35,775 nucleotides of DNA from an archaeon (lineage in GTDB: Archaea; Nanobdellota; Nanobdellia; Woesearchaeales; GW2011-AR15), in contig JABHXU010000006.1 in the NCBI GenBank assembly GCA_018657065.1, positions 1 to 35,775 of the forward strand. The letters run 5' to 3'. Within the stretch, counting starts at the first letter, position 1; each line of letters begins with the position of its first letter. Both the position numbers and the translations under genes were made by a program. The notes under the pieces were generated by a model. It made no database searches and was not told where the DNA came from. It saw only the letters and a program-made list of their open reading frames with translations. Shown piece by piece: positions 10,731 through 17,185 of the stretch.

Positions 10731-11090
10731 TGTAGGACAGTGCTCAACTATCTTGTAATAAAGAGGAAAGTCCACCCACTATCGTAATCACTCGCTAAAG
10801 CGAGCTTGAGAAATTGAGGGCAACCACTCAGAAACGAAACCACCTAAATTTAGGATGATGTGTTGAAAATGGTAACATTTTCAAAATGCTCAGAAATCTT
10901 TGATTTCTGACAGATGTGAAGATCTTGGCGACAAGATTGAGTTAACCCACAGACGTTTTTTTAGGAAAGGATGAAACGGTGAGACCTGATTTGTGCAACT
11001 CCTTTGAGAGGCTAAGTTGAATGTTGAGACAAACTTTTATCTAATTTATTAGATTAGTTTGACAAAAGGTGGCTTATAGCTGTTCTACAC
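10731..11090 (+). ncRNA. rnpB: RNase P RNA
   Basis: Catalytic RNA that matures tRNA 5' ends. Helix P1 pairs tgtaggacag (10731-10740) with ctgttctaca (11080-11089) with one G-U. The universal CR-I element gaggaaagtcc is at 10763-10773, and the 3' CR-V element with ggcttatag ends about 11079. The P4 pairing ccacc with ggtgg is present. Internal hairpins include ctcgct/agcgag, a long tcagaaatc/gatttctga stem and atcttg-gcga-caagat with a GNRA-type loop. A run of seven T (11091-11097) follows P1 and can serve as a terminator. The length of about 360 nt fits archaeal type A RNA. No strong TATA box is seen; tttttaat near 10701 is a weak candidate. Confidence 0.95.
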
Positions 11091-16444: not shown

Positions 16445-16452
16445 TTTATAAA
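16445..16452 (+). promoter_or_regulatory. TATA box for rps2
   Basis: tttataaa is a near-consensus archaeal TATA box. A start about 27 bases downstream would be near 16475, which is the first base of the outer helix of the structured leader and leaves about 110 bases of 5' leader before rps2. Confidence 0.6.
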
Positions 16453-16474: not shown

Positions 16475-16566
16475 ATTGCCAACTGTAGAAGGAAAGCTTA
16501 ATAGGACTTCTACAACACTGCTGAGGCGATAAAAAAGCAGTAAAGATGATTTCTTTACTGGATAAT
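16475..16566 (+). promoter_or_regulatory. Structured 5' leader of rps2 with alternative helices
   Basis: The 92 bases can fold as a branched domain. P1 pairs 16475-16481 with 16559-16566 (one bulge, one G-U). P2 pairs tgtagaag (16484-16491) with cttctaca (16507-16514), eight perfect pairs. P3 pairs actgct (16517-16522) with agcagt (16536-16541). P4 pairs aaaga (16542-16546) with tcttt (16552-16556). Alternatively cagtaaaga (16538-16546) pairs with tctttactg (16552-16560) as a nine-pair hairpin with a five-base loop, which uses bases of P1, P3 and P4 and so excludes P1 and P3. The ribosome site aggtga is at 16574-16579, just past the domain. The class is not recognised. An autoregulatory or switch role is inference; pairing was checked by eye. 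Confidence 0.5.
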
Positions 16567-16585
16567 TAACTAAAGGTGAAATAAT

Positions 16586-17185
16586 ATGGCTGATGAAGAA
16601 TTATTAGTTCCAAATGACACATACCTTAAAGCAGGTATACATATAGGAACAAAATTTAAAACAAAATTTATGGAAGAATTTATCTATAAAACTAGACCCG
16701 ATGGATTATCTGTTTTAAATGTACAAAAGATTGATGACAGAATTAAAACAATGGCTAATCTTTTAGCACAATATGAACCCGAACAAATTTTAGTTGTTTC
16801 AAGAAGAGAAAATGGATGGCTTCCTGTTAAAATGTTTGGAAAATTAACAGGTGCAAAAGTATTTGCTGGAAGATATCCTCCAGGTATTATGACAAATTCA
16901 ATGCTTAAAAATTTCATAGAACCTAAAATTATTGTTGTAACAGATGCATGGCCAGATAGAAATGCAGTTTTAGATGCAATTAAAATGGGAATTCCAGTTA
17001 TTGCTTTATGTGACACAAACAATCAAGCAAATAACATTGATTTGGTTGTTCCATGTAACAATAAAGGTAAAAAATCATTAGGATTGTTGTTTTATATTGT
17101 AACAAAAGAATTCTTGAAACTAAAAGGTATGATTAAAAGTGATAGTGAATTCAAATCAACAATAGAAGATTTTACACCTGAGTAA
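16586..17185 (+). CDS. rps2: Small ribosomal subunit protein uS2
   Basis: A 199-residue ribosomal protein of the archaeal/eukaryotic uS2 type. Diagnostic parts are AGIHIGTKFKTKFM at the N-terminus, YKTRPDGLSVLNVQKIDDRI, FAGRYPPGIMTNSM and VVTDAWPDRNAVLDAIKMGIPVIALCDTNN. It sits at the base of the 30S head-body junction. In many archaea rps2 lies in a cluster with rpl13, rps9, RNA polymerase subunit genes and enolase. Here it stands alone behind its own TATA box and a structured leader, and a hairpin terminator overlaps its stop codon, so it is a single-gene transcript with its own control. Confidence 0.97.
   Translation: MADEELLVPNDTYLKAGIHIGTKFKTKFMEEFIYKTRPDGLSVLNVQKIDDRIKTMANLLAQYEPEQILVVSRRENGWLPVKMFGKLTGAKVFAGRYPPGIMTNSMLKNFIEPKIIVVTDAWPDRNAVLDAIKMGIPVIALCDTNNQANNIDLVVPCNNKGKKSLGLLFYIVTKEFLKLKGMIKSDSEFKSTIEDFTPE

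Follow-up and report, generated by a model that had tools for sequence, protein, structure and literature searches.

In bacteria, ribosomal protein S2 binds to the 5' UTR of its own mRNA and represses it, an autorepression shown in E. coli (PMC10931766). The bacterial rpsB leader (rpsB motif; RF00127 t44 in Escherichia coli) precedes the S2 gene, and in the motif as described (PMC2704228) a strand of the junction forms a pseudoknot with the 3' extension that follows P1. In E. coli and mycobacteria, initiation on the S15 (rpsO) mRNA is blocked when S15 binds to a pseudoknot in the leader of that mRNA (PMC10931766); these leaders serve a different gene and protein, and their likeness to the leader described here is one of function only. 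A survey of archaeal ribosomal leaders (Eckert and Weinberg, 2020; PMC7247131) covers S15 in Halobacteria and Methanomicrobia, eL15 and L4, which are also covarying RNAs of archaeal ribosomal genes, and contains none for S2. The ligand of each archaeal leader was inferred in that survey from the gene association, and the words pseudoknot, Woesearch- and DPANN are absent from its main text.

Archaea have few known cis-regulatory RNAs. In the open-licence papers searched, none was reported for DPANN archaea, and neither these papers, the survey (PMC7247131) included, nor Rfam 15 contained an S2 leader of such kind in archaea, in line with the sequence-only reading of this DNA, which knew of no described S2 leader class in archaea. 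In our study, an rps2 leader was found in a Woesearchaeales window (the whole stretch of 35,775 nucleotides that was analysed). It matched no transfer RNA and no Rfam 15 family at the gathering score, and a permissive scan gave only chance-level matches. The t44 model (RF00127) gave zero matches in the window and in 15 relatives, and none in the leader when it was scanned permissively.

The rps2 leader and its pseudoknot

The rps2 gene (16586..17185) encodes ribosomal protein S2 (uS2) of 199 amino acids (Pfam PF00318, Ribosomal_S2). A Lon-like protease gene lies upstream and a methyltransferase-like gene downstream, and rps2 is thus outside its usual cluster, as had been noted from the sequence. 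All features of the leader are on the + strand. The leader (16475-16585), a structured RNA common to the relatives, was found to be preceded by the TATA box TTTATAAA (16445..16452), assigned by its sequence and its spacing to the start in relatives. The predicted transcription start was A16475, an A after a pyrimidine, 30 nt past the first T of the TATA box. All the start sites are predictions from promoter spacing, and the corresponding distance was 28-30 nt in 67 of the 75 relatives measured. The start A was kept in 80 of 80 aligned leaders, a conservation on which the small bonus given to this A by the leader finder bears, and T or C stood before it in 72 of the 80. The TATA box and the start near 16475 proposed earlier agree with this spacing. 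The Shine-Dalgarno sequence AGGUGA was located at 16574..16579, and a similar site was present within 22 nt of the AUG in 72 of 81 relatives. The 92-nt leader fold had an energy of -23.8 kcal/mol, compared with -13.7 ± 2.6 kcal/mol for the shuffles (z = -3.9), and none of 200 shuffles was as good. The same window also contained an archaeal RNase P RNA gene (10732-11088, 124 bits).

The transcript was predicted to begin with A-U-U-R-C-C. The RCC (GCC in this leader, 16478..16480) forms the 5' arm of P1 and pairs with GGY (GGC, 16525..16527), which lies within the loop of the pseudoknot stem 2 formed by ACUGCU (16517..16522) and AGCAGU (16536..16541). P1 and stem 2 interleave because the GGY in the loop of stem 2 pairs with the RCC at the transcript start. 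From the aligned sequences, the core is therefore a pseudoknot in which the two helices can form together, unlike the earlier description of an outer helix and a competing stem. The GGY is followed by the conserved A-rich loop 3, NAUAAAAA (16528..16535), recognised from column counts and the alignment; the core word was GGYNAUAAAAA, with a strictly conserved A-rich loop. The competing stem had been described with 8 pairs, of which only the six contiguous ones of stem 2 could be counted. In the outer helix, the inner three pairs (16478-16480 with 16525-16527) were kept in relatives, whereas the six-pair form, although possible in this leader, was unsupported: the fourth pair was formed in 35 of 80 leaders against 42 in shuffles and was unpaired in 40 of the 74 aligned leaders, and the fifth and sixth were conserved without covariation.

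The covariation score of the 74 aligned leaders was 0.514, compared with 0.172 ± 0.014 after shuffling and at most 0.134 when the partners were slid, the scoring being done without P2, which was only loosely aligned by MAFFT. The check for covariation in relatives that had been called for thus gave a clear positive result. Each of the six pairs of stem 2 used all four Watson-Crick pair types in the 74 leaders. The core pairs of stem 2 were formed in 79, 80, 81 and 75 of 81 species, shares that are somewhat inflated since the search rewarded stem length. The arms were symmetric about GG with a constant offset, which was 8 in 71 species and 9 in 10. The R-Y pair of P1 was G-C in 43 and A-U in 31 of the 74 leaders, with zero exceptions. 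As the structural search itself required the R-Y pair, the RCC was re-chosen from its distance to the TATA box alone, and R-Y was found paired in 42 of 42 species with a single candidate (23 G-C, 19 A-U). On the S2-protein tree, many branches of which are weakly supported, at least 21 changes of the R-Y pair were required, and 31-37 changes of every core pair in stem 2; a sign test on this tree was uninformative because of the few supported branches.

The competing hairpin P4

Downstream of the pseudoknot, a 9-pair hairpin, P4 (16538..16560; arms 16538-16546 and 16552-16560), was found to re-use the CAGU (16538-16541) of the 3' arm of stem 2. Both helices need these four nucleotides, so P4 and stem 2 are mutually exclusive, and the alternative hairpin with shared bases seen by the sequence-only reading was recovered with both folds conserved in relatives. 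Room for P4 after stem 2 was present in 66 of 81 species, and in nearly all of these P4 overlapped stem 2. The 15 remaining species fell under the length cut of the test, and L020, L023, L024 and L033 among them still showed a short P4. The mean z of P4 stability in the 66 relatives was -2.05 against dinucleotide shuffles, with 37 of them below -1.5. Swapping one arm between species made P4 less stable by a mean of 2.6 kcal/mol (Wilcoxon p = 1.5e-9); by this comparison of sequences, P4 coevolves with the re-used arm of stem 2. A conserved UUCU (16551..16554) near the tip of P4 was present in 61 of the 66 relatives, compared with 9.3 ± 2.6 in shuffles, and among the relatives (L001-L089) no other word downstream of the pseudoknot was as well conserved. 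The re-use of the stem 2 arm and the conserved apical UUCU indicate that two exclusive folds are conserved. The energies in this leader were near balance (-6.9 kcal/mol for stem 2 and -7.7 kcal/mol for P4).

The compact leaders L032, L045, L059 and L081 have no gap between the 3' arm of the pseudoknot and the Shine-Dalgarno sequence, which adjoin or overlap, and by this arrangement the pseudoknot is probably the off state. The distance from the stem 2 arm to the AUG was usually 27-60 nt, the ribosome site in leaders with P4 often being 30-60 nt away, and P4 and a spacer lie between the pseudoknot and the Shine-Dalgarno sequence in most species, so that direct occlusion is clear only in the compact forms. 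A role of the freed third strand as an anti-Shine-Dalgarno sequence was considered and rejected, as the native duplexes (-4.58 kcal/mol) were not stronger than species-swapped ones (-4.86 kcal/mol).

Distribution and relation to bacterial leaders

The S2 protein was searched in 99 related genomes, and the upstream DNA of 92 rps2 loci was collected, including that of the window itself and one truncated locus. About 83 of the 91 Woesearchaeales loci with readable rps2 upstream DNA contained the leader. Of these, 81 came from the structural search (four of them hand-corrected), and L021 and L090 were added on reading; the leader was absent or degenerate in L016, L036, L051, L055, L075, L086, L091 and L092 of the 91 usable loci. 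The common plan contained a TATA box, about 28-30 nt, an invariant A, UURCC, the variable insert, a stem arm, UGA and GGYNAUAAAAA, followed by the second stem arm, a further hairpin in most species, the Shine-Dalgarno sequence and the AUG. In L021, the A-rich pseudoknot loop was extended by a long insertion of additional hairpins, with both stems retained. In L090, a tRNA-Ser gene (L090:1327-1411) was located directly upstream of the rps2 leader, and the 5' end of this leader may come from tRNA processing.

A model, R1, was built from the same leaders as those of the covariation analysis, and its genome scan served as a separate check of placement. In the 99 whole genomes, all the matches above 28.5 bits were found just upstream of rps2. 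Six weaker matches away from rps2 were opened, none of which resembled a plausible leader and several of which overlapped reading frames; nothing convincing was thus seen for other genes under the motif among the weak matches opened. At E <= 0.02, R1 matched 83 of 279 genomes of the phylum, all from the same order. In other orders of the same class, the leader was found in 3 of 30 rps2 upstream regions read (L149, L159 and L165). In the remaining 27, a TATA box was present in 25, nearly always 29-33 nt before the AUG, a spacing that implies leaderless rps2 transcripts. By promoter spacing, rps2 was almost always leaderless in these other-order loci (L145-L172, L182 and L183); in Woesearchaeales it has a leader of about 100 nt and a Shine-Dalgarno sequence. 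The A of the leaderless AUG holds the same distance to the TATA box as the start A of the leader, and the leader therefore looks, from this spacing, as if it had been inserted between the start site and the AUG.

The bacterial rpsB leader and the archaeal leader share the strand order P1, P2, junction arm, P1' and extension, by the description in PMC2704228. The E. coli rpsB sequence GGAGGCAUAAC resembles the archaeal UGAGGCGAUAAA; GAGGC-AUAA occurs beside the 3' strand of the pseudoknot in both the E. coli rpsB leader (L231:161-247; GGAGGCAUAACCCC) and the archaeal UGAGGCGAUAAA, a likeness that may be due to chance. The differences were in P1, the junction and P4. P1 has 8 pairs in the E. coli leader and 3 supported pairs in the archaeal one. 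The bacterial leader has a long P1 and a three-stem junction, whereas the archaeal leader has no P3 and its fourth P1 pair does not form in 40 of the 74 aligned leaders. The archaeal leader contains a competitor of the P4 type, and none is described for the bacterial rpsB leader in the excerpts of PMC2704228 and PMC10931766. Homology to the E. coli rpsB leader was sought with R1, which gave zero matches on the + strand. Because there is no t44 match, P1 has three pairs and R1 gives no match on the strand of the E. coli leader, we hold the archaeal leader, by the tests available, to be an RNA class separate from the rpsB/t44 family.

Proposed autoregulation by S2

We propose that this RNA is an autoregulatory 5' leader of the rps2 mRNA that works like the bacterial S2 leader, and we give this reading a probability of roughly two in three. 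The evidence for function is comparative throughout and consists of the conserved pseudoknot, the conserved competition by P4, the location at the predicted transcript start and the association with rps2 only, in about 83 of 91 members of the order, as expected of a conserved 5' UTR partner of the gene. The covariation, the rps2-only association and the conservation of both exclusive folds agree with the structured, probably switching leader first suggested from the sequence. S2 is named as the ligand because the leader associates with one ribosomal gene only, which is the usual basis (PMC7247131). The transcript would start at about 16475, its AUURCC would pair with GGY, and the pseudoknot would form with the ACUGCU/AGCAGU stem. 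Free S2, when in excess over 16S rRNA, would bind and stabilise the pseudoknot and so lower the translation of rps2; without S2, P4 would take the 3' arm of the pseudoknot, which would then open and allow translation. The regulated step is probably translation, and we infer the S2 ligand, the step and the off fold alike. P2 may contain a second recognition site.

A 10-nt sequence, AGGCGAUAAA, was common to the leader and the 16S h26 region of the same genome, with a similar match in a sister species. Sequence mimicry of h26a was not supported, as the relatives change this stretch of 16S rRNA while the GG of the leader is invariant. Sequence mimicry of h36 (RCC-GNNA-GGU) was also unsupported, since the 16S rRNA of this genome reads CU/AG and the R-Y state of the leader does not track the 16S rRNA. 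No sequence mimicry of the S2 sites of 16S rRNA (h26, h35-37) was found that holds across species.

If the leader were instead a riboswitch or sensor, the A-rich pseudoknot would bind a small molecule or another growth-state factor, with rps2 as its sole target. The H-type pseudoknot, with its strictly conserved A-rich loop and GGYNAUAAAAA, does resemble small-molecule riboswitch architecture, and the two exclusive folds suit a sensor, but in the 99 genomes the motif preceded rps2 and no other gene, with none of its occurrences in front of a gene for biosynthesis or transport, and S2 would be the simplest common ligand; we consider a sensor of this kind unlikely. The restriction to a single gene, and with it the conserved competing hairpin and UUCU, would be left unexplained by a structured 5' end that shields the mRNA from decay or aids ribosome loading without sensing. 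A structured mRNA 5' end can stop 5' exonucleases, and a strand of the pseudoknot is the predicted 5' end of this transcript, which leaves such a protective role a small chance. Transcription attenuation, where the pseudoknot or P4 would govern early termination by the archaeal polymerase, could draw on the pyrimidine-rich UUUCUUU within P4 and on the 5' to 3' order of folding, which favours a kinetic choice. In this leader neither fold is followed by a U-run, however, and UUCU is outside long U-runs in most species, so attenuation appears very improbable.

Beyond autoregulation by S2, a wider reading is that the leader represents a class of RNA not described before, a pseudoknot/hairpin switch that senses S2 and originated in the Woesearchaeales lineage when about 100 nt were inserted between start and AUG of a leaderless rps2, so that the first nucleotides of the transcript became a strand of the pseudoknot and the topology of the bacterial S2 leader was reached independently. 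We put this forward tentatively, as falling just short of probable. If it is true, S2 would join the proteins with archaeal leaders, the ways in which bacteria and archaea deal with the same ribosomal protein could be compared, and a leaderless gene would apparently have gained a regulatory leader. The leader occurs across the order, always with a single essential gene, and the model of its structure, with two folds that exclude each other, is clear, which makes binding and switching directly testable in vitro.

The variable insert between the strands of the pseudoknot forms the hairpin P2 (16484..16514), assigned from the fold and from the variable region in relatives. In 10 of the 80 relatives only 3-6 nt of this insert are left. 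A common internal-loop pattern, GGNNRGC...GGAC, was found in the P2 of 18 species, namely in this leader (16484-16514) and in L002-L006, L008, L024, L027, L049, L056, L057, L060, L064, L068, L074, L076 and L085. The P2 of nine further species contained UGGCUA, UGACUAU or GAUACUUGAA.
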